Source: Thalassomonas actiniarum (GTDB taxonomy: Bacteria; Pseudomonadota; Gammaproteobacteria; Enterobacterales; Alteromonadaceae). From it: a stretch of DNA of 64,000 nt. A model generated the notes under the pieces. That model was not told the origin of the DNA and searched no databases. It saw only the letters and a program-made list of their open reading frames with translations. Positions 2,470 through 44,769 of the stretch are shown here, one piece after another. Location of the stretch: positions 310,001 through 374,000 of the forward strand of contig NZ_CP059735.1 of assembly GCF_000948975.2 (NCBI RefSeq). Direction: 5' to 3'. The first letter of the stretch is position 1. Every line of letters starts with the position of its first letter. The translations under genes were made by a program, and so were the position numbers.

Positions 2470-3348
2470 ATGATGTTATCCATAAAAGGTTTATCGAAAA
2501 CGTACGACAATGGCGTTAAAGCCCTCGATAACGTAGTCCTGGATATCCCCAAAGGCATGTTTGGTCTGCTAGGTCCCAACGGCGCAGGCAAGTCTTCCCT
2601 GATGCGCACCATAGCCACCTTACAAAATGCCGATGCCGGTTCGATTTTCTTTGATGACGTCGATGTCTTTAATGATCCCCAGGCATTAAGGCAGCGTTTA
2701 GGTTATCTGCCCCAGGACTTTGGGGTTTACCCCCGTATCGGCGCTTATGATCTGCTGGATCATCTTGCCATTTTAAAAGGTATTCAAAACAAGGGAGAGC
2801 GCAAAGAGGCGGTGGAAGGTTTGCTGGCGCAAACCAATTTATATCAGCACAAGAAAAAAGCCGTCAGCGGCTTTTCCGGCGGCATGCGGCAGCGCTTTGG
2901 TATTGCCCAGGCATTATTGGGAGATCCGGATTTACTCATTGTTGATGAGCCCACGGCGGGCTTAGATCCGGAAGAGCGTAACCGTTTCCATAACTTGCTG
3001 GTGAGCCTGGGGGAAGAAAAAGTCATTATCCTCTCGACCCATATCGTTGAGGATGTCTCCGAGCTTTGTCCCAATATGGCGGTGCTGGCCTCGGGTAAAA
3101 TTATCCTCGAGGGTAATCCGGTATTGCTGACGGAAAAAGTGAAAGGGCAAATCTGGCGTAAAGCGGTCTCGCAACAGGAGGCGTTGGCAATAGAGCAAGA
3201 GCTGACGGTGATCTCAAAACGCCTGTTTGCCGGACAAACCATTATCCATGTGATGGCAGAGCAGGCGCCGGAAGGTTTTGAAGTTGCCCCTGCCAATCTC
3301 GAAGATGTCTATTTCTCTACCTTGAACCAGCACCGCCGCGTCGCTTAA
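2470..3348 (+). CDS. ABC transporter ATP-binding protein
   Basis: A 292-residue ABC ATPase. Walker A is GPNGAGKS at residues 35-42, the signature region SGFSGGMRQR lies near residue 135, Walker B is LLIVDEP followed by TAGLDP, and the H-loop His is in LSTHIVED. The final ~80 residues form an extra domain as in the multidrug/gliding (CcmA/NatA-like) group. The start is ATG at 2470 behind AGAGGA. Its stop codon overlaps the Shine-Dalgarno of the next gene, a permease, so the two are surely cotranscribed and form one transporter. Confidence 0.92.
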   Translation: MMLSIKGLSKTYDNGVKALDNVVLDIPKGMFGLLGPNGAGKSSLMRTIATLQNADAGSIFFDDVDVFNDPQALRQRLGYLPQDFGVYPRIGAYDLLDHLAILKGIQNKGERKEAVEGLLAQTNLYQHKKKAVSGFSGGMRQRFGIAQALLGDPDLLIVDEPTAGLDPEERNRFHNLLVSLGEEKVIILSTHIVEDVSELCPNMAVLASGKIILEGNPVLLTEKVKGQIWRKAVSQQEALAIEQELTVISKRLFAGQTIIHVMAEQAPEGFEVAPANLEDVYFSTLNQHRRVA

Positions 3349-3358
3349 GGAGCAAGCC

Positions 3359-6300
3359 ATGTTATTGAAAATGTTTGCTTTTGAATGGCGCTATTTTACC
3401 CGCCAGCCCTCTTTTTATGTTACCGCTTTAATTTTTTTCCTGCTGACGTTTTTTGCCACCGTCAGTGAAAATGTGCAAATTGGCGGCGGCGGCAATGTGG
3501 TCTACAACGGGCCTTTTTCCATTGCCCAAACCCTGTTGATCATGGGGATATTTGCCATGTTTTTGGTGGTGAATTTTGTCGCCAGCACGGCAACCCGTAA
3601 CGAAAGCAGCCAGATGTCGGAGCTGCTTTACTCTAAACCCATTAACCCGGTGAGTTATCAGTTGGGGCGTTTCCTCGGGGCGTTTGCCGTGGTGCTGACG
3701 GTATTTGCTTTTGTGCCGCTGGGCATCTTGCTGGGCTGTTTTATCGGCAGCTTTACCGGCTGGGTTGATCCCGAGCGCTTGGGGCCGACTGTGCTCAGCC
3801 ATTATTTCAGCGCGTTTTTCTACCTTTCCCTGCCGACCTTACTGGTACTGTCCTGCTTTTTTTATGCGGTGGCGATCCGTTTCCGCTCTATGATGGCGGT
3901 GTACCTGGCTGCGGTGGCGGTTTTTATTCTTTATGTTATTGCCGGGCAGTTTGCGTCCGAGCCAGAGTACCGGACATTGGCAGCCCTGCTCGATCCTTTT
4001 GCTTCCAATACCTTTATGGAAGTAACCCGCTACTGGACCATGTTTGATAAAAATAACAGTGCGATAGAGTTATCCGGGATTTTATTGCAAAACCGCTTGT
4101 TATGGCTGGCGGTGGCTGTGGTGATCATGGCCTTGTTTGGTGGTTTCCGCTCGGGTATACGTTTGCCTAAAGTAAAAGCGGCTAAAAAATCTTCCACACA
4201 ATCGGGCAGCGATTTCAGCGCTTTGCTTAATAATGATATTTCTTTTAAAAGCGGCGGTATCCAAACCTGGGCACATCTGGCCCTGCGTACTAAATTTGAA
4301 ATCAAACAGGTGATCTTCAGCGCCCCTTTTGTGGTGCTGATGCTGATGACGGTCTTTTTCCTGGTCACCCCCTTAGTAGATCCAAGCGGCATGTTTGGTA
4401 CGCCGAACTGGCCGTTAACCCAGATCATGGTAGACCTTATTATCGGCTCTACCCGTTTGTTTATGTTTATCGTGCTGGCCTATTACAGCGCGGAGATTGT
4501 CTGGCGTGAACGCAACTCGGGTATGGGGGATATCGTTGATTCCCTGCCGGTGAATAATATCACTTTCTGGCTCTCGAAGATGGTGGCCATTACCTTAGTG
4601 GTGGCCCTGTTGTTTGTTTTTGCCATGGCGGTGACTATAGCCAACCAGTTGATACAAGGTTATAGCAACCTGGAGGTTTCCCAATACCTGATACGTTTAG
4701 GTTATCTCAATGTATTGCCGCTGATGATGGTGGCAATACTGGCGTTTTTCCTGCAGGTGATCAGCCCGAATAAGTATGTCGGTATGTTATTGTTTGTGCT
4801 CTTTATTATCAGCTCTATCGTGCTAAGCAATTTTGGCTTTAGCCATAAGATGTTCCAGTTTGCCGATTCCCCGCAGCTGTTTTATTCGGACATCAATGGT
4901 TACGGCGGCTTTTTGGACAGCCATTTCTGGTATATGTTGTATTGGGGCGGCTTCAGCCTGATACTCGCGGCCCTGACCCATGCCTTATGGCACCGGGGGC
5001 CGGTACAGCCGCTGAAGGTGCGGATGAAAAATGTCGGTTATTATCTCGGGGCCCCGGGAAAATCAGCCATCGCCATGGGCTTGCTGGTCTTTATCGGCGC
5101 CGGTAGCTATATCCACTACAATACCCGGGTGTTAAATGAGTTTGTGATCCAGGACGACAGGGAAGCCTTGCAGGCGGAATATGAAAAGCAGTATGTGCAA
5201 TATAAAGAGGCCAACATCCCGACCATCACCAAAACTTTTGCCAAGGTGGACATGTATCCGGCACAGCGCAGGATTGAGGCGGAAGCCGAAATCAGCGTCA
5301 CCAATAGCGGCAATGAACCTATCAGCCGTTTCCTGGTCTCCAAGCCGGAATTCACCGGGGAGTGGGGAGTAGAAATTGCCGGCGGGCATTTAGGTTTGCT
5401 GGATGAGACCTTTGATCTTGCCTGGTTCGAATTTGAACAGCCGCTGATGCCGGGCGAAAGCCGTAAGGGTAAACTTTTAGCCCACCGGGCCCATCAAGGT
5501 TTTAGTGACGGCAACAATGATTTTACCCTGGTGGAAAACGGCAGCTTTATCAATAACTATGAACTTTTCCCTACCTTTGGTTACCGCCAGGACCAACAGT
5601 TAAGCGATCGTCATAAGCGCCGTAAATATGGCCTGGAGCCATTGCAGCGCGCCAATAAGCTTGAAGATACTAACTTCTACAATGAGAGTTTCTTCGGTAA
5701 AGGCGTTGGCTTTATCGATTTTGAAGCCAGGGTTTCCACCTCGGCAGATCAGTTCGCCATCGCCCCGGGTTATTTGCAAAGTGAAAAGCTTGAGGGGGAT
5801 CGCCGCATTTATCACTATAAGATGGATGCCCCTATGGTGAACTTTTACTCGATTATGTCCGCCCGGTTAACGGCGAAAAAGCATGAGTATAAAGGCATTG
5901 ATATCGAAGTCTATTATCATCCGGACCATGGTATGAACGTCGATACTATGATTACCTCGGTACAGGACAGCATAGATTATTTCACCGGGCACTTCGGCCC
6001 GTATCAGCACAGGCAAATGCGTATTATCGAATATCCGGGTTATCGCACCTTTGCCCAGAGTTTTGCCAATACCGTGCCTTATTCGGAGCGCATCGGCTTT
6101 ATCAGCGACTTGCGCGATGCGGACAATATCGATCCCGCCTATTATGTTACCGCCCATGAAGTGGCCCATCAGTGGTGGGGGCACCAGGTGGGGGCCGCCA
6201 ATGTTCAGGGCAGCGCCATTATTTCCGAAACCCTGTCGCAATACGGTGCGCTTATGGTGATGGAGAAGAAATACGGTCAGGAAAAAATCCGTAAGTTCTT

Positions 6301-6952
6301 GAAATATGAACTGGACCGTTATCTACGTGGCCGCAGCGAGGAGTTTCTTGAGGAAATGCCGCTGTTTCGCAGTGAGAGCCAGAGTTATATCCATTACCGC
6401 AAGGGCTCGGTGGTGATGATGTCCTTGAAGGACCGCCTGGGGGAACTAAAGTTAAACCGGGCGCTGAAAGGCTTTTTGGCCGAGTTTAAATATCAGAGCA
6501 GTCCTTACCCGACCACATTGGATTTGATGGCTTATATTAACCGTGAAGCCAGTGAGCAGGAGCAGGCCTTTGTCAGCAACCTGTTCGAGCATATCAGCCT
6601 TTATGATCTGAAAACCACAGATGTTAAGGTGGTGGCTGTGGATGAGGGCAGTGAGGGGGAAAATACGCTGTTTGATGTCACCCTGACCATAGAAGCGGCA
6701 CTGAAGCAGGCGGACGGCCAGGGCAAAGAAACGGATGTTGAATTCAGCGACCTGGTGGATATCGGCTTGTTTAATGCCGATCCCGAAGATTTAAGTGCAC
6801 AGGATTATGTACTTTATCTGGCTAAGCACGCCATTAAAACCGGCACCAATGAAATCACCATCCGGGTGAAAGGCAAACCCGAATATGCCGGTGTTGATCC
6901 TTTTGTGAAACTGGTAGACAGGGACAGCGCCGATAATATTTATCGCCTGTAA
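3359..6952 (+). CDS. ABC permease fused to an M1-family aminopeptidase
   Basis: A 1197-residue two-part protein. Residues 1 to about 600 contain two blocks of hydrophobic helices like ABC-2 type permeases (roughly 15-270 and 310-600). The remainder is an M1 metallopeptidase domain with HEVAHQWWGHQ (zinc motif from residue 933) and a downstream Glu in ISETLSQY near 957. An upstream Tyr/Glu-rich stretch fits the peptidase fold. The GAMEN-type exopeptidase motif is not obvious. The gene follows its ATPase by 10 bp with AAGGAG spanning the previous stop. This permease-peptidase fusion is a recurrent family in marine gammaproteobacteria; the transported substrate is unknown, and export coupled to peptide trimming is inference. 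Confidence 0.88.
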   Translation: MLLKMFAFEWRYFTRQPSFYVTALIFFLLTFFATVSENVQIGGGGNVVYNGPFSIAQTLLIMGIFAMFLVVNFVASTATRNESSQMSELLYSKPINPVSYQLGRFLGAFAVVLTVFAFVPLGILLGCFIGSFTGWVDPERLGPTVLSHYFSAFFYLSLPTLLVLSCFFYAVAIRFRSMMAVYLAAVAVFILYVIAGQFASEPEYRTLAALLDPFASNTFMEVTRYWTMFDKNNSAIELSGILLQNRLLWLAVAVVIMALFGGFRSGIRLPKVKAAKKSSTQSGSDFSALLNNDISFKSGGIQTWAHLALRTKFEIKQVIFSAPFVVLMLMTVFFLVTPLVDPSGMFGTPNWPLTQIMVDLIIGSTRLFMFIVLAYYSAEIVWRERNSGMGDIVDSLPVNNITFWLSKMVAITLVVALLFVFAMAVTIANQLIQGYSNLEVSQYLIRLGYLNVLPLMMVAILAFFLQVISPNKYVGMLLFVLFIISSIVLSNFGFSHKMFQFADSPQLFYSDINGYGGFLDSHFWYMLYWGGFSLILAALTHALWHRGPVQPLKVRMKNVGYYLGAPGKSAIAMGLLVFIGAGSYIHYNTRVLNEFVIQDDREALQAEYEKQYVQYKEANIPTITKTFAKVDMYPAQRRIEAEAEISVTNSGNEPISRFLVSKPEFTGEWGVEIAGGHLGLLDETFDLAWFEFEQPLMPGESRKGKLLAHRAHQGFSDGNNDFTLVENGSFINNYELFPTFGYRQDQQLSDRHKRRKYGLEPLQRANKLEDTNFYNESFFGKGVGFIDFEARVSTSADQFAIAPGYLQSEKLEGDRRIYHYKMDAPMVNFYSIMSARLTAKKHEYKGIDIEVYYHPDHGMNVDTMITSVQDSIDYFTGHFGPYQHRQMRIIEYPGYRTFAQSFANTVPYSERIGFISDLRDADNIDPAYYVTAHEVAHQWWGHQVGAANVQGSAIISETLSQYGALMVMEKKYGQEKIRKFLKYELDRYLRGRSEEFLEEMPLFRSESQSYIHYRKGSVVMMSLKDRLGELKLNRALKGFLAEFKYQSSPYPTTLDLMAYINREASEQEQAFVSNLFEHISLYDLKTTDVKVVAVDEGSEGENTLFDVTLTIEAALKQADGQGKETDVEFSDLVDIGLFNADPEDLSAQDYVLYLAKHAIKTGTNEITIRVKGKPEYAGVDPFVKLVDRDSADNIYRL

Positions 6953-9390: not shown

Positions 9391-10062
9391 TCAACTTAAT
9401 AACTGGGCGAGTGTTTTCGGGTGCTCTTTTACCGAGAGGATTAATTTTGATCCCGGCGACATTAACGACAGATCACGGGCCTCATTGAGGCGGATTGAAA
9501 TTTTTTGCCCTTTGTCTTTAGTAAATGGCCCGAAGATCATTGAGATACGTCCGGTGATGCTTTGTTCGCCGAGTTTGATGGTGACGTCCGCTCCCGCCTT
9601 GAGTGGATTTTTAGGATGTTCCTGCAGCCAGAATAAATATTCATCTGAGGAATTGTTGTTTAACAGGTAACCTATAGGTTGGTGTGCCGGAATAATCTTT
9701 GACCCTGCCGGCGACTGGAAGTAATAACCGGCTTTTTCTGCACGTAAATAATGGCTTTCGGATTGCTGTTCGCCCAGGTCAACAATACCCAGTTTAGCAA
9801 CCGCCTGATCTTTATCGACCTGGGTACCTTGGGTGATCAGTTGTTCGTTAATCACTACCTTTTCCTGCATCATCATCGGCTGGTAATTTTCTATGCTGAT
9901 CTGCACCTTGTAGTCTTGCTTGGGGGTGAGTGTAATAAATTGAATGCCAACGGCTGCAATGAAGGCAATGAAACACAGGGCTAATATGGATTTGCCAATA
10001 ATGGAGGTTTGTTTGCAAGCGTCTTGATTGGTTTGTTCGCTGAATCTTTTAATAACTGACAT
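9391..10062 (-). CDS. Short HlyD-like membrane-fusion-type protein lacking the coiled-coil hairpin
   Basis: A 223-residue protein. A short cytoplasmic N-terminus is followed by one transmembrane helix (SILALCFIAFIAAVGIQFI, about residues 25-45) and a periplasmic part. That part resembles the lipoyl/barrel-sandwich halves of HlyD-family adaptors (VVINEQLITQGTQVDKDQAVAKLG.. and ..EKAGYYFQSPAGSKIIPAHQPIGYLL). The long alpha-hairpin that normally separates the halves is absent. HlyD proteins work with peptidase-type ABC exporters, and a double-glycine peptide gene lies just upstream on the same strand, but no C39 ABC transporter is in the window. The adaptor assignment is inference from pattern only. 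Confidence 0.5.
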   Translation of the reverse strand: MSVIKRFSEQTNQDACKQTSIIGKSILALCFIAFIAAVGIQFITLTPKQDYKVQISIENYQPMMMQEKVVINEQLITQGTQVDKDQAVAKLGIVDLGEQQSESHYLRAEKAGYYFQSPAGSKIIPAHQPIGYLLNNNSSDEYLFWLQEHPKNPLKAGADVTIKLGEQSITGRISMIFGPFTKDKGQKISIRLNEARDLSLMSPGSKLILSVKEHPKTLAQLLS

Positions 10063-10281: not shown

Positions 10282-10473
10282 TTATATGGTTTCAGCTAAG
10301 CAGACCTTGCCGGCAGAGGTTTTATTCCCCCGGTGCAGTTGTGAAAGTGATGACTGTGAATCGATTAATCCGCCCACCATATCGTTTAGCAGTTCTAAGC
10401 TGCTAAGTTCAATAAAGCCTTTATTTACTTTGAAGCTGTCCGCCTGGGTGGAAGTTAATTTTGCGTGTTTCAT
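10282..10473 (-). CDS. Small double-glycine-leader peptide precursor (candidate)
   Basis: A 63-residue peptide with a strong Shine-Dalgarno (AGAGGA, 8-nt spacer) and ATG start. Residues 23-35 (LSSLELLNDMVGG) resemble the leader of exported bacteriocin/microcin-type peptides: hydrophobic residues at -4 and -7 and Gly-Gly at -2/-1, though the acidic residue is at -9 rather than the usual -8. Cleavage after G35 would release a 28-residue core with one Cys. A HlyD-like gene follows on the same strand, and a winged-helix regulator is divergent. Without a C39 peptidase nearby, processing is inferred. Confidence 0.55.
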   Translation of the reverse strand: MKHAKLTSTQADSFKVNKGFIELSSLELLNDMVGGLIDSQSSLSQLHRGNKTSAGKVCLAETI

Positions 10474-10587: not shown

Positions 10588-10619
10588 TGTGACTTTTGCG
10601 TAACCAGAGTGTGACTTTC
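10588..10619. promoter_or_regulatory. Conserved motif TGTGACTTTT-NN-GTAACCA with a second half repeat
   Basis: The 22-bp block at 10588-10609 recurs with 19 of 22 identities at 13829-13850 upstream of a secreted-peptide gene. Directly after it, TGTGACTTTC (10610-10619) repeats the left half with a 22-bp period, about two helical turns. The site lies between the leader-peptide gene (start 10473, minus) and the regulator gene (start 10728, plus), a natural place for an operator of that regulator. Confidence 0.5.
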
Positions 10620-10727: not shown

Positions 10728-12911
10728 GTGATTGTATTGGGTAGTTACAATTTGGATGTAGAGGAAATGACGTTAACCCGGGACGGGGTGGATGTCATAC
10801 TCGAACCTAAAGTTTTAGCGGTATTACTTTATCTCTATCAGCATCATGATACTTATATTTCAATGGAAGAGTTGCATGAAAAAGTCTGGCAGGGACGAGT
10901 GGTTTCTGATGCTGCAGTGCGCCGGACCATAAGTAAGCTACGCCTGTTATTTAAAGACGACCACAAAGTGCCGCGTTATATCAAGTCATTGCCGAAACGG
11001 GGCTATAAATTGATTTGTCCTGTTTCGGGTAGCCATAATCAAGGTGATAGCGCAGCGGAAGCGACTGGCGGCAAAGGCGAGCCCCAGGCTCAGCTTGAAG
11101 GAGAAGAAATATCAGGCCGGACTGCTGCCGGCGACAAGGCAAATACTCAGATTGCGGATAATCACCAGGCTAACTCAATTCCTGTTGCCGGGACTCAAGC
11201 TAAAAAATCGGCAAAGCCGCTTACTTTATCGGCGCTTTTTCTTGTTATCTTATTTTTGGCCGGTTTTATCTATTATTTTACCGGCAATGACTCTGTAACC
11301 CCGGAAAAGTCAGCGGTTTCCTCAGAAGTACTCCATTCTCTGCCCGGAGATAAATTAGCCCTGGCACAGTCGCCTAACCGGCAGTATTTTGCTTTTTCCG
11401 GACAGGTTAGCGAACATACCGGCTATCAGGTGTATATTAAACGGGAAAACGGACATGATTTTTTGCCTGTTACCCATAATGCCCATGTGCCAATTTCACT
11501 GGCTTTTTCAGTAAATAACGATGCGCTGTTTTATTCGGATATGAAAGAAGGCAGCTCGTCATTAAACAGCATAACCCTTAGCGACAGCACAGATTATCAA
11601 ACGCAGCCCTTGTTGGAAAACTACTTTAAGATAGGCAATATCTTTACCTCTAATGACCCGCAATTGGTTTATTTTTCCGGGCAAAAAAAGGCAAACGAAC
11701 CCAGATATATTTACCGCTATAACCGCAGCACGCAGCAAACTGTCAGGGTGACATCAAGCACCAATATCAAAGATTTAGACATTAAAGGCACCATCACACC
11801 GGACGGTAAATTGATGGCTGTGCTCCGTTATTCTGAATTTGAGAATGCCGATGAAATCAGGATCATCGATTTAGACAGTAAAACTGTTATTTACCGCCGT
11901 CAGCAAAGCAATATTGTTTATGATCTGCGTTGGTTTGATAATGAAAATTTACTGATTTTGAATAAAGAACAATTGTTTAAGCTTGATTATAAGCAGGATG
12001 CCGCGTTTGCAGTACTGGGGCGGGAGCATAACCTTATTGCTTTGGCGAACGTAGATCAACAGCAAGTATTGGCGGTTTCTACGCAGCAATCGGCACCGAA
12101 GAACTTGTTCTTTGAGCAGGAACTGCCTTTTAACGACTGGACTACCCGGAAAATTTACAATGTTGACCCTGATGTCCTTTATATGGCGCATCAGGCCGAC
12201 GATAAAACAAAGACGATTTTGGTGAATAAGGATAATATTGCCACCCTGGGTAAATTGCATACCGTCAGCAATGAAAGCACGCCTTACATTGAAACTGAAT
12301 ACCATTTGCTTCCCGTTGCCTCGGCTTCATCCGGGTTGCAGGAATTAATTAAAATCAATCATCGTTTTGCCTTGCTTAATACCGAGACCAGCAGTTTGAC
12401 TTATATCACCTCCGGGGATGATTATGTCGGCGATGCCAGTTTTACTGATGATGAAAGCCATATTTTATTTTCGGTTAAAGGTTATGAACAGTGGGAGGTC
12501 TACCGTTATAACATAGCGAGTAAAACTTCCAGTTTGTTGTTGGGCGGTTTTCGTTATATACGCCCCTATGGTGATGATTTTATCCTGGGGACGGCCGAAG
12601 GAGAGTTGTTCTGGCATAATGGCCAAACCGGGGAGCAGGTTGCACTTGATAACCAATTATCTACCGAGCCCAATACCCATTGGGATGTTAACGGCAACTT
12701 CATTTTTTGGAGTAGCCATGATCTGGTACAAACCGTTTTTTATCAGCTGGATATCAGCGATATCAACAAGCCGGTCAAGCTAAGCAAAACTTTTGATTAT
12801 AATAAGATCAAGCCTTATTTTTCCGTTAAAAAGGATGGTTCATCCCTGTTATATTCTGTAAGGCAAAAGGGGAAATCTGAGATATTGGCGTTAAGGCTAG
12901 ATCAAACATAG
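10728..12911 (+). CDS. Membrane-anchored winged-helix regulator with periplasmic beta-propeller (CadC/ToxR-like)
   Basis: A 727-residue protein. Residues 1-105 form an OmpR/PhoB-type winged helix (ILEPKVLAVLLYLYQ.., AVRRTISKLRLLFKDD, YIKSLPKRGYKL). A polar linker leads to one transmembrane helix around 165-185 (LSALFLVILFLAGFIYYF). The remaining ~540 residues are propeller-like strands, probably periplasmic and sensory. The start is GTG with AGG close upstream. This one-component design binds DNA from the membrane. The gene is divergent from the leader-peptide gene and followed by the two CxDSPTRCE peptide genes, which makes it their likely regulator (inference). It is one of three such proteins in the window. 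Confidence 0.8.
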   Translation: MIVLGSYNLDVEEMTLTRDGVDVILEPKVLAVLLYLYQHHDTYISMEELHEKVWQGRVVSDAAVRRTISKLRLLFKDDHKVPRYIKSLPKRGYKLICPVSGSHNQGDSAAEATGGKGEPQAQLEGEEISGRTAAGDKANTQIADNHQANSIPVAGTQAKKSAKPLTLSALFLVILFLAGFIYYFTGNDSVTPEKSAVSSEVLHSLPGDKLALAQSPNRQYFAFSGQVSEHTGYQVYIKRENGHDFLPVTHNAHVPISLAFSVNNDALFYSDMKEGSSSLNSITLSDSTDYQTQPLLENYFKIGNIFTSNDPQLVYFSGQKKANEPRYIYRYNRSTQQTVRVTSSTNIKDLDIKGTITPDGKLMAVLRYSEFENADEIRIIDLDSKTVIYRRQQSNIVYDLRWFDNENLLILNKEQLFKLDYKQDAAFAVLGREHNLIALANVDQQQVLAVSTQQSAPKNLFFEQELPFNDWTTRKIYNVDPDVLYMAHQADDKTKTILVNKDNIATLGKLHTVSNESTPYIETEYHLLPVASASSGLQELIKINHRFALLNTETSSLTYITSGDDYVGDASFTDDESHILFSVKGYEQWEVYRYNIASKTSSLLLGGFRYIRPYGDDFILGTAEGELFWHNGQTGEQVALDNQLSTEPNTHWDVNGNFIFWSSHDLVQTVFYQLDISDINKPVKLSKTFDYNKIKPYFSVKKDGSSLLYSVRQKGKSEILALRLDQT

Positions 12912-13038: not shown

Positions 13039-13209
13039 GTGTTCAAAATAATAATAATAACCTTCAAAGCACTGCTTTTAACCCTTAATCTATTGATCAC
13101 GCTTCAGGAGTTGGCCTATCTCAGTGAATTTGGCGCTCAAGGGGCCGGGAGGGTTGATCCCTTCTACCTTTGCACCGATAGCCCGACAAGATGTGAAAGA
13201 AAAATATAA
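13039..13209 (+). CDS. Small secreted-type peptide with C-T-D-S-P-T-R-C-E motif (56 aa)
   Basis: A short GTG-initiated gene. AGGAAG lies nine bases before the start, and no ATG is available in the open frame back to the TGA at 12997. Residues 2-22 are basic then strongly hydrophobic (FKIIIITFKALLLTLNLLI), like a signal sequence, though no clean cleavage site is visible. The C-terminus is FYLCTDSPTRCERKI. The Cys pair is at residues 45 and 52, the same positions as the first pair in the longer paralogue at 13984. The region before the start (GGAAGAAA.. AGTCGTG) also matches that paralogue. It appears to be a short paralogue or a decayed copy of a peptide precursor. Confidence 0.65.
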   Translation: MFKIIIITFKALLLTLNLLITLQELAYLSEFGAQGAGRVDPFYLCTDSPTRCERKI

Positions 13210-13983
13210 ACCTGGAGTTTGTTTATTTTTGCCCTAAGTGTTTATTTCGGCGGTCAAGGCTTGATGCTAAAAGGCTGGGACCGCAGCCGGTAAGTGCGCC
13301 TGCCAGATATGATCTAAGCCGCAGTAAATCTTACATCGAATATTTTTTAAAGCTCCTCATCTGTAACTATTGCCTGCTGAGCTGTTACCGATTGAATATG
13401 CCAGTCTGCACCGGCATCGGGCGGCAAGTCTTTTTTAATTGGTTAAGAGGCTAAGCCATAAAGCTAAGGCTATTGCCTGGCTGCACTACCGCTCCTTCTT
13501 TTATTTTTCCTGCCATTAATCCTTTTTCTAAACGGGAATGAATTTTTATGGCCGTTATTGTTATCCCGGCTGAAGAATTTTTTATTGGCTAAGGCATGAC
13601 TTGATGATTTTTTCTTCAAATAGGTTTGTTGCCTGCAGTTTACTTTGAACATGCGTGCAGTAAAACGCCATAAAGTCATGTTAAAGCTGCAGGGCAGGAG
13701 TAATGCAAACATTTCAGTGCTTGACAGTAAGCCCGGGTTCAAGAAAAAAAGCATTTTTTCGCAATTATGCTTTGTTAGCTGAAAGTTAATGGCTTCTTGT
13801 ATCTATATGATTGCTAAGGTGTTTTTGTTGTGACTTTTCTGTAACCAAAGGAAGTTATGGGAAGATTATAAGGAAATAACTGCTAAATCACGGCGCCATT
13901 ATTGGTGAATGGCCTGGTTACTTGCAAATTGGAGTTGCTTTGAAACAACGCCGATTTGGCACCAATAACTGGAAGAAACAGTC
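13210..13983. other. Intergenic region with shared motif and inverted repeat
   Basis: No convincing gene is seen in these 774 bp; a 94-codon minus-strand frame at 13470-13754 has a biased, low-complexity composition and no family resemblance. The 3' part is probably the promoter of the next peptide gene. It holds the 22-bp motif at 13829-13850 shared with 10588-10609, and a 9-bp inverted repeat TTATTGGTG (13899-13907) / CACCAATAA (13960-13968) whose right arm abuts the Shine-Dalgarno. Confidence 0.6.
13829..13850. promoter_or_regulatory. Second copy of the TGTGACTTTT-NN-GTAACCA motif
   Basis: This block is identical in 19 of 22 positions to 10588-10609. It lies 134 bp before the start of the secreted peptide gene at 13984. 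Recurrence at two promoters of the same cluster suggests a common regulator, most simply the winged-helix protein encoded at 10728. Confidence 0.45.
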
Positions 13984-14283
13984 GTGATGAAAACAATAAA
14001 AACAACATTAAAAACATTCACTTTATCTTTTGCTTTATTAGCAGCCAGCGGGCAGTCAGCCGTAGCCAATGAAAATATCAGTCAAGAGTTAGCGAACATC
14101 TCCAGTAACTTTGTTTGTACGGACAGCCCGACAAGATGTGAAATTCAGCTTCAGGAGCAGTTAGCCGCTGCAGCCGCTGCTGCTGAATATAGCAGCCAGG
14201 AATCTGAGACATTTCCCAACCAGGAGTCTGCGACTCAGTCCAGTGCCTTTATCTGTGCGGACAGCCCGACCAGATGTGAATAG
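13984..14283 (+). CDS. Secreted peptide precursor with two C-x-D-S-P-T-R-C-E repeats (99 aa)
   Basis: Begins GTG-ATG behind GGAAG; the GTG is preferred because it aligns with the only start of the paralogue at 13039. Residues 1-28 form a Sec signal peptide (KTTLKTFTLSFALLAASG.., cleavage after AVA). The mature part has FVCTDSPTRCE at residues 43-53, a spacer rich in Ala, Gln, Glu and Ser including seven consecutive Ala, and FICADSPTRCE at 89-99, ending the protein exactly. Each motif encloses six residues between two Cys and could form a small disulfide loop or be released as an identical unit. I recognise no known family. A LuxR-type regulator starts 46 bp downstream. Confidence 0.75.
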   Translation: MMKTIKTTLKTFTLSFALLAASGQSAVANENISQELANISSNFVCTDSPTRCEIQLQEQLAAAAAAAEYSSQESETFPNQESATQSSAFICADSPTRCE

Positions 14284-14329: not shown

Positions 14330-15025
14330 ATGAAACATATAGAGCAAATGATCGAGAAAATTGAGTCAATCGATTCCAAAAAAGGTTTAAACGACTTTTT
14401 TCAGGAAGTCGGGAAAACTTTTCATTATGCCTGGTCAGGCCTTGTGATATTTGAACCTAGCTCCAGTAAACATTTTATCCCGAAGTTTTTTGGTGATGTT
14501 CCTGCCGGGCTACGTACTTTTATTAGTCAGGATGACAACATCAAGCGCTATTGCCTTAATGAAAGCAAGCCGGTTGATTATCGAAAGCTCTTGCTGGAAA
14601 AAAAGGCTCTAATACCATCGAATGAGACGGAGGGGGTTTTTTCCCGGGAGGAATGTCAGCTGGTTGTCCCGGTGAATGGATCAGGCAGTGAATTTGCCTG
14701 TTTGATCTTCTCTATGCCACAGCAGCTGATGGAAGAAGAAATATTAGAAAAACTCGGTTGGTACTGGGTGATGTTGTCCCCTTTTATCTATTCAAGGTAT
14801 CGAAAAAAGGTGATGGAGCAGGGGACCAAGATGACCAAAAGAGAGCTGGAATGTATCAAATGGGCGTCTGAAGGGAAAACCTCATGGGAAATCAGTCAGT
14901 TGCTTACCATTAGCCAAAGGACGGTTGATTTTCATCTGGCTAATTGTATTACTAAAACCGACAGCATTAATCGCCAGCAGGCGGTGGTGAAGTGTATTTT
15001 ACATGGCCATTTACTGGCGGTTTAA
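14330..15025 (+). CDS. Solo LuxR-type transcriptional regulator
   Basis: A 231-residue protein. The C-terminal ~65 residues are a LuxR/GerE helix-turn-helix of the quorum-sensing type (MTKRELECIKWASEGKTSWEIS.., ISQRTVDFHLANCITK, NRQQAVVKCILHG). The N-terminal ~160 residues are about the size of an autoinducer-binding domain and include VVPVNGSGSEFACLIF, but the Trp/Tyr/Asp set usual for acyl-homoserine-lactone contact is not clear. No luxI-type synthase is in the window. The gene lies 46 bp after the CxDSPTRCE precursor on the same strand, so it may be cotranscribed and respond to, or control, that peptide (inference). Confidence 0.75.
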   Translation: MKHIEQMIEKIESIDSKKGLNDFFQEVGKTFHYAWSGLVIFEPSSSKHFIPKFFGDVPAGLRTFISQDDNIKRYCLNESKPVDYRKLLLEKKALIPSNETEGVFSREECQLVVPVNGSGSEFACLIFSMPQQLMEEEILEKLGWYWVMLSPFIYSRYRKKVMEQGTKMTKRELECIKWASEGKTSWEISQLLTISQRTVDFHLANCITKTDSINRQQAVVKCILHGHLLAV

Positions 15026-15565
15026 ATCCTTCTGAAAGTTTAATGGATAATTACCGCCGCTTGACCTTATTGTGCCAGTAGTGCCTTTAACTTGGCCATG
15101 ATGTCACGGTACATTCGGCGGTTTCCCCTTGTCAGCAATGCTATCTAACAGCTCAGCCGGGCTTGGTCGAACTTAAAGCTCTGGTTGACGATCTCCACTT
15201 GTGCGTGCCCCTGCCTGTTAACAAGCAGAATTTCCTCGCGGCTAATGCCGGTTTTCACAAGTTCTGCAACCGAACTTATAGTAACCTTATGTTTATAAAT
15301 GAGTTTACCTTATGCTGCCTTAAACCCGGATCTAAGATCGCTAGATTAAGATAAACAGTTATTTAGGAGGTGTCATAAATACACTGAGTTGTTTAGCAGA
15401 CAGTTAAGTGTTAATTAGACACTTTGTTCAACGATAAAAATTTTAGCTGTTCAGCATGCTTTTCTTGTTATCTGATTGTTTCTTAATGTATTTGTTTTTG
15501 TGGTTCACTTGTTGCTATTCATCTAGAGAAATTACAGATTATTTGATCGATTGAGGGTAACCAAG
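15026..15565. other. Intergenic region, possible decayed gene on the minus strand
   Basis: No intact gene is supported. On the minus strand, about 15135-15310 reads as a ~50-codon frame without a proper start codon (..SSVAELVKTGISREEILLV..), followed in another frame by a short stretch starting MYRDIMAKLKALL. This is like the remains of a small antitoxin-type gene, but the resemblance is weak. The part just before 15566 is AT-rich and probably holds the next promoter. Confidence 0.3.
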
Positions 15566-15943
15566 ATGAAAAGCAAAATATTAATACTGACCGGCTTATT
15601 GGCGTTGACTGCACCTGTACAGGCGGATGAAATTGTTGAAGCCGTGCCTGATAACACCCTGGGCCAGGCTGTGGGCGGCTGGAGTTCCTTTTTGATCGGC
15701 GGGGCCGTCGGCGGTCCGATAGGCGCAATCGTTGGCGGTATTGCCGGAGCCTGGACCGGGGGCAATATCCAGCAGGCAGCAGACAAGAGTGAAAACGGTT
15801 ACCTGGTGAAGACAGAGGATGGCAGCACGCAATATATACGCTCTCCTAACCAGGCTTTTGCTGTGGGTGATCAGGTAAAAGTGACCGGAATTCGCATCAT
15901 TGCTGATGAAAATCAAAGTAGGCAAACGAAAAATGCTGAATAA
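15566..15943 (+). CDS. Secreted glycine-zipper protein
   Basis: A 125-residue protein. A signal peptide (MKSKILILTGLLALTAPVQA) is followed by a glycine-zipper segment (GGAVGGPIGAIVGGIAGAWTGG, about residues 45-67) and a C-terminal part (YLVKTEDGSTQYIRSPNQAFAVGDQVKV) like the small barrel found after glycine zippers in SlyB/RcpB-type envelope proteins. The ATG at 15566 is preferred over a TTG five codons upstream because GAGGG is nine bases before it. It is probably an outer-membrane or periplasmic structural protein. There is no lipobox. Confidence 0.75.
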   Translation: MKSKILILTGLLALTAPVQADEIVEAVPDNTLGQAVGGWSSFLIGGAVGGPIGAIVGGIAGAWTGGNIQQAADKSENGYLVKTEDGSTQYIRSPNQAFAVGDQVKVTGIRIIADENQSRQTKNAE

Positions 15944-22724: not shown

Positions 22725-22966
22725 CTTGTTTCCTTAATCATTATTGATTTTTTAATTGAGCTGTTGGCAAAATTTCGCGCTCCGGGATTGTTTTAGGAAG
22801 AGAGCGCGCCTGGTTTAAAAATATGCCGATATTTAATCACCTTTTGTGCTGAATTTTTCTGAAGGTTTTCTGAAATAACCTTTCTAAAGCTGATTTTCAT
22901 TGACTTAAAGCTGAAAAAGGTTATGTTCAGCTTTTATCTTATTTGCCCGCTTTATGTTGAACTTTG

Positions 22967-24985
22967 ATGTCTGCTGCCGTTAAAAAATACCGCTTTTTAC
23001 ACTGGGAATTTGATTGTCTGCAGGACAGTCTCAGGCATATTGACGAGCAGGCGAGTCAGAAGCTCGAACCCCAGGTAGCGGCACTATTGCTGCTGCTGAT
23101 CGAGAACCGGGAAAAGGTTTTGTCCAAAGAGGAATTGAGCCGGGCCTTATGGCCGGATACGGTTGTGGAAGAAAACAGTGTCTATCAGCTGCTGACCAAA
23201 TTACGTAAAGTGCTCAGGGATCCGCCGAAGCAGGCACAGATCATTAAAACCTTCCCGAAAAAAGGTTATCGCCTTATTTGCGAGGTAAAGAGTTGTGAGG
23301 TAGAAAGGTTCGAGGTAGAGGAAGGTGAGGCGACAAGCTACGAAGAAAAAAATGTTCAGGAGCCTGTTAGATCAAAGCAGGAAAAGCGCCTTCGCTTGAC
23401 CTTGATCACGGTTTTTTTCCTGTTATCGGGCTTTACCGCTATCGCCTATTTCTCCACTCAATCACCGCAAGAAATGCCTGTCAGTTACGCCTCGGTAGAG
23501 CTGACTACTGCTCTCGGGCTGGAGAGCTGGCCTTCCCCTAATCCCTCTGATGGGAGTATCGTTTATATCAAAGATGCCCATCAGCTGTGGCGTAAAAGAA
23601 AAAATACCGATGCACAGCTGATATTCGAAAGCCCGGACCGGCTGTTCTACCCGGCCTGGTCAATAAAAGGGGACAGCATAGCCTTGTGGCAGTTAAAAGA
23701 TAGCAGCTGTTTATTAACTGTTAAGGATGAACAGGGCAATGACATCACCCGCGCTCCCCTGGTGGAGTGTGACTATGTCGGGCGCTTGCTCTGGCTTGAT
23801 GACAAGCGCTTGGTTGCGCTTTATCGAACGGCCGGGGTGTACCGGGCATTTCAGTATGATGTGTCCGGGCAGGTTTTTACCGAAATACCGCTGGAACTTG
23901 ATAAGGGAGAGCGGTTGAAAACCGCCGTGAAAGCCTGGCAGGACAAGGTTTTTTATATCACCATAGACGCCAACTATCACAGCCGTTTAATCGATAAATC
24001 CGGCACGGCTTATTTAAGCTGGGATTACCCGTTGAAGTTTGCCGCTTTCGACAGGAAAAACCAGAAATTATTGATTAATGATAAATCCAAACACCAGGGG
24101 TTGAGTAGTGTCACGCTTGATGGCCATCAGCAAAATATTGCCGAAACCGCCCGGGGCATTTTTTCTGCCATCGCCGCCGATCACCGGGGGAACCTGTATG
24201 CGACAGTGGAGAACTGGCAGGTCAATATCCGGGATAAAGATAACCTGCCGGTCTTTTCCAGCACCAGCCTGGATTATCTGCCGGTGAGTAATGCCCTGGG
24301 GGAAACCGCCTTTATGTCTCGCCGTGGCGGTTTTTGTCAGATTTACCTGCATGAAGACGGTAAAGTAAAGCAGCTATCACAATTTACTAATTATGATACG
24401 GTAAAGTTTGTCCGCTGGAGCCCGGATTTAAGCCTGATTTTAACCAACCGCGATGACAGTGCCTATGTTTATAACCGTAACGGCCTGGTGAACAGTTTTG
24501 ACCTGGTGACCCCTCATTTACCCGTCAGTTTCGGCTGGCTCAGCAAAGATAAAATTTTTAGTTTTGACGGCGACTACCTCAGGTATTATCAGTTATCGGG
24601 GCAAAAAGTTGCTGAATTTCAAATTGATGCTGACAATTTATTTTACCAGGCGGGTCAACAAAGGTGGTGGCTGTTTAAGAACAATCGCTTATATTCGGTT
24701 GACGGCGAGTTATTAAATGCGGCGCAATTGACCGGGCAGGTGTCACTGAGCGGGCAGCAAGGCAGTAAAATTTCCGATATCCGCATGGTGGGCGACCGCA
24801 TGTACTGGAAAAGCCGTTATGACCACCAGGATTTTATCTGGCAATATCACCCTAATGATTTAACACCTAAGCTGATCAAGCGTGGCAGGTTTATCTGGAA
24901 TTATGATGTTAATGCCAGTTTCGAGTTATCGATTGCGGTAAAAGAGCATATCGAAGGCAATATCCGCTTTTATAAAAGTCCATAA
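22967..24985 (+). CDS. Membrane-anchored winged-helix regulator with propeller sensor (second copy)
   Basis: A 672-residue protein beginning MSAAVKKYRF. Residues ~5-105 are an OmpR-type winged helix (KLEPQVAALLLLLIEN, ALWPDTVVEENSVYQLLTKLRKVL, IKTFPKKGYRLICEV). A charged linker leads to one transmembrane helix near 140-160 (LTLITVFFLLSGFTAIAYF). The periplasmic ~500 residues are propeller-type strands with many Trp. The ATG is preferred to an adjacent TTG; the Shine-Dalgarno is weak. It is divergent from the NTF2/VOC secreted-protein operon, which is its likely target (inference). Confidence 0.8.
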   Translation: MSAAVKKYRFLHWEFDCLQDSLRHIDEQASQKLEPQVAALLLLLIENREKVLSKEELSRALWPDTVVEENSVYQLLTKLRKVLRDPPKQAQIIKTFPKKGYRLICEVKSCEVERFEVEEGEATSYEEKNVQEPVRSKQEKRLRLTLITVFFLLSGFTAIAYFSTQSPQEMPVSYASVELTTALGLESWPSPNPSDGSIVYIKDAHQLWRKRKNTDAQLIFESPDRLFYPAWSIKGDSIALWQLKDSSCLLTVKDEQGNDITRAPLVECDYVGRLLWLDDKRLVALYRTAGVYRAFQYDVSGQVFTEIPLELDKGERLKTAVKAWQDKVFYITIDANYHSRLIDKSGTAYLSWDYPLKFAAFDRKNQKLLINDKSKHQGLSSVTLDGHQQNIAETARGIFSAIAADHRGNLYATVENWQVNIRDKDNLPVFSSTSLDYLPVSNALGETAFMSRRGGFCQIYLHEDGKVKQLSQFTNYDTVKFVRWSPDLSLILTNRDDSAYVYNRNGLVNSFDLVTPHLPVSFGWLSKDKIFSFDGDYLRYYQLSGQKVAEFQIDADNLFYQAGQQRWWLFKNNRLYSVDGELLNAAQLTGQVSLSGQQGSKISDIRMVGDRMYWKSRYDHQDFIWQYHPNDLTPKLIKRGRFIWNYDVNASFELSIAVKEHIEGNIRFYKSP

Positions 24986-26737: not shown

Positions 26738-28771
26738 TTAATGAAACATCACGATCTCTTTTTTGCCGCGCACATAATTTAAGTAGAGCAACCTTTGGTT
26801 GTTGAGATCTATATCATCAATCCTCACGGCGGCAGGACTCGGGCGATTCAGCAATTTTTTGCTGTTGCTGCCCGGGTGATATAACCAGATGCCGCCGGCG
26901 CTGTCGCTAAAGGCGATATTATCCGCGGCTATTAAAAACTTCTTATAAGCAATAACCTGGTCCAGTGGTATTTTTTCACCGGCAGCCAGTGTAAATACTT
27001 GCCCGGCGGCATTACTGAGATATAACTTCTTTCGGCTGTCCAGTTGAGCCCAGGAGGCCTGTCCCCGGTGTAATATTTGGGATTCGCCGCTGCCGATATC
27101 AAATAACCTTATTTCCTGATTTTGTCCCGAAGTGGTGTTTAATAGCAGCCGGCTATCATCTAACCATTGATAAATGTTGAGTACCGAAAAGGTGTGCGCT
27201 AACGGCTCTATAACCCCTTGGTGGTCCAGCAAGTGGAGTTGGTTGTTGATATTAAGGACCAGCAGTTTGCCTGTATCCGACCAGATAAAAGATTGCAGCT
27301 TTTGCTCCGCCTTTAGCCGGGTAAGTTGTTTCAGGTTATCGCCGTCGTCGTACCATACCTGGTAACTGCCGCTGCGATCTGAGGCAAAGGCGATCCCTTT
27401 ACCAAGCGGATGATATTTTGCCGTGCCTTCGTTGACTGTGCTGCGATATAACACCTGGCTGGTCGTTTCTTTATTATTGGTTTGCCCCCAGCTTAACTGG
27501 GCAATATCAAAATCGGCAATGCCCAGGGTTGCGGCAACCCGGTGGCCGTCGGGGTGATAGGCGGGGTCGGAAATGGTTTGATAGGTGGGGATCGGGTATT
27601 CGTGAAAGTTGCCGTCCAGTGACATTTCAAACAAGGAACTTCTGTTGGCCACCAGTACCTTGTCTCCCTCGGGGTGCCAGTCCATACCTATCCAGGTGTG
27701 AAATTGGAACTTCTTCGGCAGCCGCAATGGGGCTTGCTGAAAATTGCCGGATTGGGGATCCAGGGTGAGCAGGTTGATCCTGTTGCTGCTGTCAAACTGC
27801 AACAGGGCCAATTTATGCTTACGCGGGGAATAAGATAAGGCATAGGGATATTTGCCTTCTTGCTTATAGAGCAAGTTTGATTGTTGCGTTGAGCTATCTA
27901 ATGTTAATACCTCGGCGTAATCCTGGTGCTGCCGGGTAAACGCCAGCTTATGCCCGCTGAGCCAGCTCAGGGAATATATAAGGTGAGTACAGGAATATAA
28001 ACTTGTCGGGGATTGCGGCAGGTTTTTCGCCAGGGTAAACGATAAGGTGTTAATGCTCATACATTCGCCCCCGTCCCGGTTATCGGCAGCTAAGGTCATT
28101 TCGGTAAAAGCAAGGCGGCTGCCGTCGGTTGACCAGGCGACTTTGCCGTAAATGCTGCTGTCTTTTGTGATCCTGAATTCGCGGTTTTCCTGCAAATCTT
28201 TTACCCAGAGGTGATTTTTTTGCTGTCCCTGATGGCGCTGAAAAGCCAGGTAGCGGCCATCGGGTGAAAAGCTTGGCCGGTACTCGGTTTCATCTGTGGT
28301 CGTCACCGGGGTGACATGGGTAAATACCATAGGTTGGCGGGCGGGTTGTAAAGTAAAATAAAACGTCAGTGCAGTGATCAGCAGCAGGGAAAGCAGCGCG
28401 GTTACCTTTGCTGTTTTCGATAGCTTAGCCGTGTTTTTTTTGGATGTTGGTATTGTTGTAGGCCAGTGCACTCGGGCAACCAGGCTATAGCCCATTTTCG
28501 GATGAGTCGCGATATAGTTTTGCGCTTTGGCGCTGTCGTTAAATGCCTTGCGCAATTGGGCGATACAACGTTGCAGGGTATTGGCTTCCACCACCACATC
28601 CGGCCACACCTGCGCCAGCAATTCCTGATGAGAGACGATTTCCCCCGGCTTGTTAGCCAAAAGCAATAACACTTTTAACACCTTGGGCTCTAAGGTCAAT
28701 ACGGTTTGCTGATGGATGATTTCGCTGCGGTTAATATTAACGCGAAATTCTCCGATATAAACTTCACTCAT
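26738..28771 (-). CDS. Membrane-anchored winged-helix regulator with TolB-like propeller (third copy)
   Basis: A 677-residue protein. Residues 1-100 form an OmpR-type winged helix (LTLEPKVLKVLLLLANKPGEIVSHQELLAQVWPDVVVEANTL.. in part, and YIATHPKMGYSLVA). A transmembrane helix lies near 125-145 (VTALLSLLLITALTFYFTL). The rest contains PD40/TolB repeats (EYRPSFSPDGRYLAFQR, GKVAWSTDGSRLAFTE, YHPLGKGIAFASDRSGSYQVW). It faces away from the esterase gene at 28993, which is a plausible target. It is convergent with the M48 peptidase at a 12-bp interval. Confidence 0.85.
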   Translation of the reverse strand: MSEVYIGEFRVNINRSEIIHQQTVLTLEPKVLKVLLLLANKPGEIVSHQELLAQVWPDVVVEANTLQRCIAQLRKAFNDSAKAQNYIATHPKMGYSLVARVHWPTTIPTSKKNTAKLSKTAKVTALLSLLLITALTFYFTLQPARQPMVFTHVTPVTTTDETEYRPSFSPDGRYLAFQRHQGQQKNHLWVKDLQENREFRITKDSSIYGKVAWSTDGSRLAFTEMTLAADNRDGGECMSINTLSFTLAKNLPQSPTSLYSCTHLIYSLSWLSGHKLAFTRQHQDYAEVLTLDSSTQQSNLLYKQEGKYPYALSYSPRKHKLALLQFDSSNRINLLTLDPQSGNFQQAPLRLPKKFQFHTWIGMDWHPEGDKVLVANRSSLFEMSLDGNFHEYPIPTYQTISDPAYHPDGHRVAATLGIADFDIAQLSWGQTNNKETTSQVLYRSTVNEGTAKYHPLGKGIAFASDRSGSYQVWYDDGDNLKQLTRLKAEQKLQSFIWSDTGKLLVLNINNQLHLLDHQGVIEPLAHTFSVLNIYQWLDDSRLLLNTTSGQNQEIRLFDIGSGESQILHRGQASWAQLDSRKKLYLSNAAGQVFTLAAGEKIPLDQVIAYKKFLIAADNIAFSDSAGGIWLYHPGSNSKKLLNRPSPAAVRIDDIDLNNQRLLYLNYVRGKKEIVMFH

Positions 28772-43456: not shown

Positions 43457-43518
43457 GGGAGAATTATCCTTATTATTATCTTGTAAAAAGTATATCGATT
43501 GCGTTGCTAAATTTTCAG

Positions 43519-44769
43519 CTAGCGTAAGTGTATTTGTCCTAATTCATCATATTTATTCGTTGAAGATATGATCACTTGATCACCTGCCCTAAGCGAGGAA
43601 AGCACCTCAATATCGTCAACAGAACTACGGCCAAACTTAATTTTCTTACGCGCCGCAACGGTTTGAGTTTCATTCAACACAAAAAGACTGCTTGAGGAGT
43701 ATTCCTGTGTGAATACCGGTCGTTTTAACTTTAAGATATTTTTTAAATGCTCGAGTTCTATCACGCCATCAATACGCAGATCAGGACGGGCACCTTGAAG
43801 TGCGCCATCGTTAAAGAAAACGTCGACCTTAACAACTCCCTGTTGTACCGAAGGGTTGATGCGCCTGACTACGCCTTGAGCCATATTGCCGCCAGCCGAT
43901 AACATCACCGCCTGGCCTTTTTCTACCTCTTTCACCTGGCTTTCCTGGACCAGTAACTCGGCCTTTAAATTATCCTGTTCGGCAATGCGCGCGAGCACGG
44001 TACCAACTTTGAAAGGCTCGCCAACCTGTAAAGTGACTTCTTGTATGATGCCTTTGGTGCTGGCTTTCACCGTTAAGTCATCGGCAAGCTTTTCTTGCAA
44101 GGCTAAATGGCGCGTTGCTTTGTTGATTTGCGCTTTAGCAGCCGAAAGTTCTGCTTGTTTTAATGCCGGCAGGCTTGCCAGTAACTCAAGTTCTAATTCA
44201 TGCTGAAATTTAAGTTGCTGTTCTAACAGTATTGATTCGTTGTAGTCGATATTGGACACGGCTCCTGTATTTAACAATCGCTGATTCGCTTCTCTTCTTA
44301 ACCTGGTCATTTCATACCGGGCATTAAAGTCTGCCACTACAATACGTTGCTTTAATATCGATTGCTGCCATCGCTGTTGAAGTGAGTGATATCCGGCCCG
44401 GAGTACTTCAACTTCAAATTTAGCTTTATCAACGGCCTGGCTCAATTCAGGATTATCAAGCACCATTACCACTGTGCCTATGTCAACTTCATCGCTGGCT
44501 TCAAGCAATATTTCTTTGACCCGCCCGTTAGAAGTTGCAGATAAAAAGTTCGAGGCAATGGGCACTAAAGTTCCCGGTGCCCTCACTTCCCGAATCAAGT
44601 CACCATTTTCTACCGTGGCAATGATAAAGTCTTCTTGAGATACCAGGGTATTATTACTCATTGCCTGTATACGGCCCCATGCCAGAGCCAATATTGTTAC
44701 AACAGCGATAACCATAAAAGCTTGCTTAAAAGAGATAAGTCGATTTGAATTTTTGTCTGGGATCTGCAT
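43519..44769 (-). CDS. HlyD/MacA-type periplasmic adaptor of efflux pump
   Basis: A 416-residue protein with one N-terminal transmembrane helix (FMVIAVVTILALAWG). A lipoyl half (GDLIREVRAPGTLVPI) is followed by a coiled-coil hairpin at ~110-230, then LTVKASTKGIIQEVTLQVGEPFKVGTVLARIAEQ and beta-barrel domains. It is first gene of the adaptor-permease-ATPase operon. The outer-membrane partner (TolC) is not in the window. Confidence 0.88.
   Translation of the reverse strand: MQIPDKNSNRLISFKQAFMVIAVVTILALAWGRIQAMSNNTLVSQEDFIIATVENGDLIREVRAPGTLVPIASNFLSATSNGRVKEILLEASDEVDIGTVVMVLDNPELSQAVDKAKFEVEVLRAGYHSLQQRWQQSILKQRIVVADFNARYEMTRLRREANQRLLNTGAVSNIDYNESILLEQQLKFQHELELELLASLPALKQAELSAAKAQINKATRHLALQEKLADDLTVKASTKGIIQEVTLQVGEPFKVGTVLARIAEQDNLKAELLVQESQVKEVEKGQAVMLSAGGNMAQGVVRRINPSVQQGVVKVDVFFNDGALQGARPDLRIDGVIELEHLKNILKLKRPVFTQEYSSSSLFVLNETQTVAARKKIKFGRSSVDDIEVLSSLRAGDQVIISSTNKYDELGQIHLR

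Follow-up and report, generated by a model that had tools for sequence, protein, structure and literature searches.

The agr system of Gram-positive bacteria carries a hypervariable block, and peptide-regulated class II bacteriocin clusters combine an inducing peptide with a kinase and a response regulator. In a section of the review PMC13220807, peptide quorum sensing is cast as a Gram-positive paradigm 'and beyond', with examples that are Gram-positive only, and a system of the kind set out below was not found described in the open-licence literature, passages of PMC11856585, PMC13220807 and PMC10134790 included. Here we analyse a stretch of 64,000 nucleotides of Thalassomonas DNA (the window), in which two short peptide genes lie between the genes for a ToxR/CadC-like membrane transcription factor (TF) and a LuxR-type regulator (Table 1). 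Comparison with related loci leads us to propose that a peptide signal which amplifies itself, and which the membrane TF perceives in the periplasm, probably controls a RiPP/bacteriocin-type gene cluster.

Table 1. Features around the peptide genes, in window positions
Feature	Position	Strand	Remarks
HlyD-like protein	9391..10062	-	weak sub-threshold PF12700 match; blastp cluster across the cassettes of 5 genera
Putative double-glycine precursor (...GFIELSSLELLNDMVGG / LIDSQ...)	10282..10473	-	leader type as in G002, G003 and other genera
Putative operator, three TGTRAC half-sites	10588..10615	+	11-bp period, one mismatch per match; between precursor and TF
ToxR/CadC-like membrane TF; proposed peptide receptor	10728..12911	+	winged helix, membrane segment ~165-183, C-terminal propeller-like domain
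Peptide gene 1, 56 aa	13039..13209	+	loop CTDSPTRC at 13171-13194
Putative operator, perfect TGTRAC-N5-TGTRAC	13829..13845	+	ahead of peptide 2 and luxR; equally perfect in G002 and G003
Peptide gene 2, 99 aa	13984..14283	+	loops CTDSPTRC 14116-14139, CADSPTRC 14254-14277
LuxR-type regulator	14330..15025	+	GerE DNA-binding domain; N-terminal domain not recognised as AHL-binding

The two peptide genes are codirectional and together contain three copies of the motif C-[TA]-D-S-P-T-R-C-E, to which an earlier note on this DNA had drawn attention. When the ORFs were read again, the copies stood exactly where the note had placed them, at residues 45-53 of the first product (DNA 13171-13197) and at residues 45-53 and 91-99 of the second (14116-14142 and 14254-14280), the residue numbering of the 99-aa product depending on a GTG start. 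This start is supported by G003, where the gene begins GTG ATT with no adjacent ATG, and by a similar leader, GGAAGAAA...CGTG, before both peptide genes in the three Thalassomonas genomes. The orthologous pair was found in G002 (Thalassomonas sp. RHCl1) and G003, and DSPTRCE is kept in 9/9 copies across the three genomes; overall, the long precursors of G000 and G003 share 63% identity. In G000 and G002 the long precursor stops with the motif, as the note had remarked of the window, but in G003 it continues with IRM. Six of the nine motif codons show synonymous differences with the amino acids kept, which indicates that constraint acts on the protein, and as judged from these alignments the motif copies are more than a chance coincidence, being conserved and constrained as protein. 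The pair is absent from G001, the fourth genome of the genus searched, where the long precursor, the LuxR and the TF gave no match at the thresholds used, the precursor reaching only a chance-level match (E 0.74).

The absence of significant matches to the window peptides in Pfam, NCBIfam and PHROGs agrees with the note's view of a peptide family without described relatives. A Bowman-Birk identity of the Thalassomonas peptide was rejected, the match being sub-threshold (E 0.031, 15 bits against a Pfam cut-off of 20.4). The pattern search that the note had suggested, run in relaxed form (C-x-D-S-P-x-R-C-E type) over 295 genomes of the family, recovered all 9 Thalassomonas copies, but outside the genus it gave only 4 single matches. 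The motif by itself thus failed as a route to the peptide family, which was reached through the neighbours of LuxR relatives.

In other genera, relatives of the window LuxR are directly preceded by a small Sec-type ORF that ends in a different two-cysteine loop (Sec-type signal peptides were assigned by hydropathy and by eye). Full-length first-tier LuxR genes, drawn from relatives of the window LuxR and from genus-wide searches, define 29 cassettes in six genera (3 in g1, 9 in g18, 8 in g17, 6 in g61, 2 in g40 and 1 in g21), a set that leaves out G233 and G109, whose LuxR matches are fragmentary. The order TF - peptide(s) - LuxR on one strand is found in 29/29. Under fixed criteria (40-110 aa, a hydrophobic segment, C-x3-6-C near the C-terminus, at most 130 bp from the LuxR start), a peptide is present in 29/29 cassettes, as against 0/20 second-tier LuxR loci (20 of the 21 g18 control loci were entered) and 35/2900 dinucleotide shuffles. 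Eighteen of the cassettes came from the first search for LuxR relatives; the other 11 were located after the hypothesis had been noted, and 11/11 carry the peptide (for example CIMVPKLC in G797). The arrangement recurs in a different family of the order, where G408 has a TF, a peptide (CQSVPTLC) and a LuxR-type gene with a GerE score of 28.5 bits against a cut-off of 23.5. It might be objected that such short ORFs, which are small and match no family in Pfam, NCBIfam or PHROGs, are spurious or mark a DNA or RNA element, but their occurrence in all cassettes as against the control loci and shuffles, together with synonymous variation under amino-acid conservation, leaves this hardly credible. 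The family is recognised by its gene context, TF - peptide - LuxR, and not by the CTDSPTRCE motif. In plasmid records neither the window TF nor the LuxR of G163 had a relative spanning 80% of it, and viral contigs yielded a single partial LuxR relative.

The loops follow the pattern C-x3-6-C and vary both between and within genera. Eight-residue rings in cassettes are CTDSPTRC, CADSPTRC, CILLPQLC, CIMVPKLC, CVIYPILC, CVVFPILC, CILAPDGC, CTISPIFC, CILAPDLC, CILVPELC, CRLAPQLC and CIWFLQNC, and those from TF copies without an adjacent LuxR and from the other family are CYLLPARC, CKLLPQVC, CLVSPHMC and CQSVPTLC; 15/16 forms have proline at ring position 5 (C-xxx-P-xx-C). The smaller rings are CWFIC, CVWFVC, CIWMGC, CGWFLC, CGILNC, CWINNTC, CKLTSSC, CQVLSTC, CKILDTC and CKITGTC, in a list that omits short C-x2-6-C ORFs at G251 and G002 that overlap or are unlike the family. 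Some loci carry multiple loops: Thalassomonas has three near-identical ones in two genes, and G042 has three genes with one loop. The earlier idea of a secreted peptide family is upheld in that the peptides are probably secreted and the cysteine loop is the conserved unit; CTDSPTRCE itself, which that idea took as the family motif, is merely the Thalassomonas form of a variable loop.

On the downstream side, the luxR start lies 46 bp beyond peptide 2. A GerE/LuxR DNA-binding domain was found in 14/14 members scanned (of 29), and Autoind_bind is absent from the 12 families that match any of these 14 at E 0.1. As an observation apart, second-tier g18 LuxR genes (L081, L082, L086-L088, L090) adjoin short double-glycine-type ORFs with a recurring ...I[NH]GG...SSDT[ST]VT.PS, possibly another peptide family.

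The TF is the one further gene common to 22/22 neighbourhoods compared and stands upstream of the peptide in 29/29 cassettes. In the window its N-terminal winged helix matches Trans_reg_C (PF00486, E 2.3e-12), and each of the 29 homologues has one dominant hydrophobic segment, with 19-residue windows starting at residues 126-183 as judged by hydropathy only. Profile matches of the periplasmic domain include the WD-40 repeat protein 2ymu (E 6e-10) and TolB (7mx5, E 1e-9), both with partial coverage; structure predictions from two sequences each were unusable (pLDDT 46.2 and 42.5), the AF2 model of the propeller-like domain (42.5) being too poor for fold confirmation. This topology would place the sensor where a Sec-exported, disulfide-closed peptide is expected to be.

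A search with the periplasmic domain gave 32 TF copies that are not beside a first-tier LuxR (17 + 12 + 3, including G233, G109 and G113), and a Cys-loop peptide lies downstream of 4/32, as TF and peptide pairs without an adjacent LuxR in G270 (two), G246 and G258. TF and peptide are thus found together whether or not a LuxR adjoins them. None was found after the remaining 28/32, two of which (L180, L184) end less than 190 bp from a contig end, where a peptide could be missed; the 28 include G233 and G109, with no peptide seen after the TF, and G113, in which a LuxR-type ORF comes next after the TF and the gap holds no Cys-loop peptide. Since most copies outside the cassettes have no peptide, the TF family extends beyond the peptide system and must have other things to sense as well. 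Other ToxR-like genes were noted in passing. L176 (G200) has three tandem paralogues about 40 bp apart, then an insulinase-like protein (named by eye) and no Cys-loop peptide, and the window itself encodes two further Trans_reg_C regulators (22964-24985 and 26738-28771), the second with PD40 propeller repeats.

Pairs of close relatives with different loops indicate which protein may read the peptide. G292 (CVVFPILC) and G657 (CILAPDGC) have similar precursors, with most differences in and beside the loop; their LuxR proteins differ at 5 residues, the winged helices at 5/105 and the periplasmic domains at 103/533. Between G724 (CTISPIFC) and G655 (CILAPDLC) there are 6 differences in LuxR, 4/105 in the winged helix and 160/531 in the periplasmic domain. 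Identities in the two pairs are accordingly 97-99% for the LuxR domains and 95-96% for the winged helix, as against 81% and 70% for the periplasmic domain; same-loop pairs show no comparable periplasmic drop. At the DNA level both changed-loop pairs have an identity of 0.93-1.00 as far as roughly base 250 of the TF gene. From there to about base 1150 it is 0.58-0.87 in G292/G657; in G724/G655 it is mostly 0.58-0.79 from about base 550, with 0.89-0.90 at bases 1298-1598. The main peptide window stands at 0.75 or 0.51, and LuxR again at 0.93-1.00. In G292/G657 most of the change falls within TF residues 201-400, beyond the linker, and in G724/G655 almost all of the domain is altered; the linker that precedes the membrane helix diverges in G292/G657 and is likewise variable in same-loop pairs.

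Among the 16 pairs closest by LuxR distance, the first-half periplasmic distance does not exceed 0.104 in the 13 that share the same (last) loop and is 0.30-0.31 in the 3 changed-loop pairs; the 3 represent two independent events and the 13 four groups of relatives. Over all 29 cassettes the partial correlation of loop distance with the two periplasmic halves is 0.31 and 0.28, compared with -0.06 for the LuxR N-domain and 0.18 for the LuxR C-domain, with a permutation that ignores phylogeny. The receptor does not simply follow loop similarity: the loops of G201 and G292 are similar, yet their first-half periplasmic distance (0.376) exceeds that of G201 and G657 (0.321). Five TF columns, all within residues 204-256, group G201 and G292 against G657 and G655, the other groupings having 11 and 22. 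Taken together, the alignments point to a joint change of the loop and the TF periplasmic domain, with the regulatory rest conserved.

These comparisons bear on two other readings of the cassette. The receptor could be the LuxR protein itself, the peptide being re-imported and bound in the manner of RRNPP pheromones while the membrane TF only controls expression; the peptide gene lies directly upstream of luxR in 29/29 cassettes and no Autoind_bind match occurs in the 14/14 LuxR members scanned, as this would have it. We nevertheless regard it as quite improbable, since loops have changed while the LuxR domains stayed 97-99% identical, loop distance shows no partial correlation with the LuxR N-domain, and TF and peptide pairs exist with no adjacent LuxR. 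LuxR as the specificity receptor was set second because of the loop-change pairs with near-identical LuxR. It is also unlikely, if less so, that the peptide acts only in the periplasm of its producer, where it would sense status or secretion for the membrane TF, and not as a cell-to-cell signal. ToxS is a partner-type analogue for such a role, a periplasmic receptor needs no passage through the outer membrane, and no exporter or protease dedicated to the Sec peptide was recognised among the shared neighbours. A private partner would, however, be expected to be conserved, whereas here the loop and the proposed receptor domain change together, resembling pheromone specificity groups, and Thalassomonas and G042 have several loop copies per locus.

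Aligning the TF promoters brought out a direct repeat, TGTRAC-N5-TGTRAC, with a period of 11 bp. Such a period is what one would expect of OmpR-type winged helices. Over the 565,272 bases of the 29 loci, scanned on both strands with at most 1 mismatch, there are 23 matches in 14 genomes. All 23 read along the coding strand and lie in the promoter of a TF gene (-300 to 0) or of a peptide gene (-350 to 0); with the spacing set to other values from 2 to 11, these promoters gave 0-3 matches. The pattern was defined on TF promoters and on the Thalassomonas peptide-2 promoter, so that those matches are not independent; nor are related genomes independent of one another. The peptide-promoter matches in G042, G163, G797, G706 and G715 played no part in its definition. 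The 64-kb window has 3 matches against 0.64 expected, a number reached in 5/100 shuffles. Neither G201 nor any of the 14 g17/g61 cassettes has the repeat. Of ten further loci, six lack it, three have it ahead of the TF (G233, G109 and the first copy in G270), and G408 has it once, downstream and on the other strand. Separately, TATAACTTT[GA]GTTATA stands right after the TF stop in 7/7 peptide promoters compared (six g17 genomes and G238), and is perhaps the g17 counterpart of the TGTRAC repeat. An imperfect dyad seen by eye upstream of peptide 2 was dropped when an exact 7-base dyad scan gave nothing consistent.

Across the putative operator, and divergent from the TF, lies the putative double-glycine precursor gene, which adjoins the HlyD-like gene. 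The precursor has no Pfam match, and its GG leader is of the same type as at g18 and g61/g17 loci with a C39 ABC exporter. No C39 domain was found in window ORFs of at least 500 aa, so that the exporter of the window precursor, if any, would be elsewhere. In 22 neighbourhoods compared through ORFs of at least 80 aa, the genes shared between some of them (named by eye) include C39-peptidase ABC exporters, HlyD-like proteins, MacA/MacB-like proteins and radical-SAM enzymes. By Pfam, selected neighbours comprise a C39 exporter and a radical SAM in G201, a LanKC-like enzyme (RamC_N + kinase + LANC) and a C39 exporter in G019, and an MvdD-type ATP-grasp and a radical-SAM/SPASM protein in G181; these differing modification genes indicate that the same cassette accompanies several unrelated RiPP chemistries. 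Double-glycine-type precursors occur in most loci, the script finding none in G042, G163, G797, G200 and G127. AgrB and AgrC were not recognised among the genes shared across genera or in the selected cassette-neighbour proteins scanned, and the window has a histidine kinase/response regulator pair, together with CreD, at a distance of about 15-17 kb.

The window holds some further genes of interest: a 1197-aa protein with ABC-2 membrane segments and a peptidase M1 (3359-6952) adjoins an ABC ATPase gene (2470-3348), and a pair of MacB-type permease and HlyD-type protein (41027-44769) stands 26 kb from the cassette. Directly after the cassette is a small protein with a weak sub-threshold glycine-zipper match (15551-15943), which is followed by genes for cytochrome oxidase subunits III and IV.

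The peptide could instead be a small antimicrobial or a protease inhibitor in its own right, as Sec-type, variable sequences with two cysteines, and the weak Bowman-Birk match of a Thalassomonas copy, might suggest. This we find very doubtful, because many clusters have double-glycine precursors and modification genes of their own, of unrelated chemistries, with the peptide staying with the regulators, and because loops such as CWFIC and CILLPQLC are unlike the Bowman-Birk motif.

We favour a peptide signal, which is also the likelier half of the signalling or defence role that the earlier note had offered while leaving the two flanking regulators and the double-glycine precursor unconnected. 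The model draws on gene order, on the conservation and variability of the loops, on their joint change with the receptor domain, on the repeat positions and on the cluster context, all read from the sequences. The peptides would be precursors of a disulfide-closed signal; Sec would export them, and the loop, closed in the periplasm, would serve as the recognition element. The receptor would be the periplasmic propeller-like domain of the ToxR/CadC-like TF encoded just upstream. Once occupied, the TF may bind the tandem TGTRAC repeats that precede its own gene and the peptide-luxR genes, and in the window the repeats at the TF gene would also lie in the promoter region of the divergent double-glycine precursor. 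If binding activates rather than represses, a positive feedback loop would result that, with LuxR as co-regulator or output, may turn on the RiPP/bacteriocin-type export cluster, and the signal could act between cells.

If the model is true, peptide signalling through a one-component membrane receptor in a Gram-negative cell would constitute a new signalling architecture and provide a handle to wake silent RiPP clusters of marine bacteria. The proposed inducers contain disulfide rings of 5-8 residues, which are amenable to synthesis, and the two natural loop changes would make receptor specificity accessible to domain swaps.

As far as could be found, the signalling logic is a known one, that of peptide-induced bacteriocin-type clusters, and the parts are without homology to described peptide-signalling systems. 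With class II bacteriocin clusters the system shares a small peptide and dedicated regulators beside double-glycine precursors, along with a C39-peptidase ABC exporter in several genera, but the proposed inducer has a Sec-type leader and not a double-glycine one, and the receptor and regulator families are others. The TF resembles ToxR/CadC one-component regulators in its cytoplasmic OmpR-type winged helix, single membrane segment and periplasmic sensor domain, and differs from them in a sensor that resembles TolB/WD40 propellers and in a proposed ligand that is a co-encoded peptide. Like LuxR solos, the cassette LuxR has a LuxR-type DNA-binding domain and no LuxI recognised beside its gene; unlike them, its N-terminal domain is not recognised as AHL-binding, and the first-tier members go together with a peptide and a ToxR-like TF. 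The closest parallel is with agr (AgrD/AgrC, Gram-positive), taken here as its architecture is outlined in a section of PMC13220807: in both, a small ring peptide varies together with the sensor domain of its receptor, or proposed receptor, the other regulatory parts are conserved, and positive feedback, here a proposed one, closes the circuit. The cassette differs in having no recognised AgrB or AgrC, no expected thiolactone and a Sec-type leader, and in a proposed receptor that is a membrane-bound TF in a Gram-negative cell. The fullest reading of this comparison, which to us seems as apt to be wrong as right, is a Gram-negative counterpart of agr built without agr parts, in which a Sec-exported, disulfide-closed, hypervariable pheromone would be read directly by a membrane TF with a propeller domain, specificity groups would arise as receptor domain and peptide are replaced in one block, and the whole would serve marine Gammaproteobacteria as a portable switch for RiPP clusters of unrelated chemistry.
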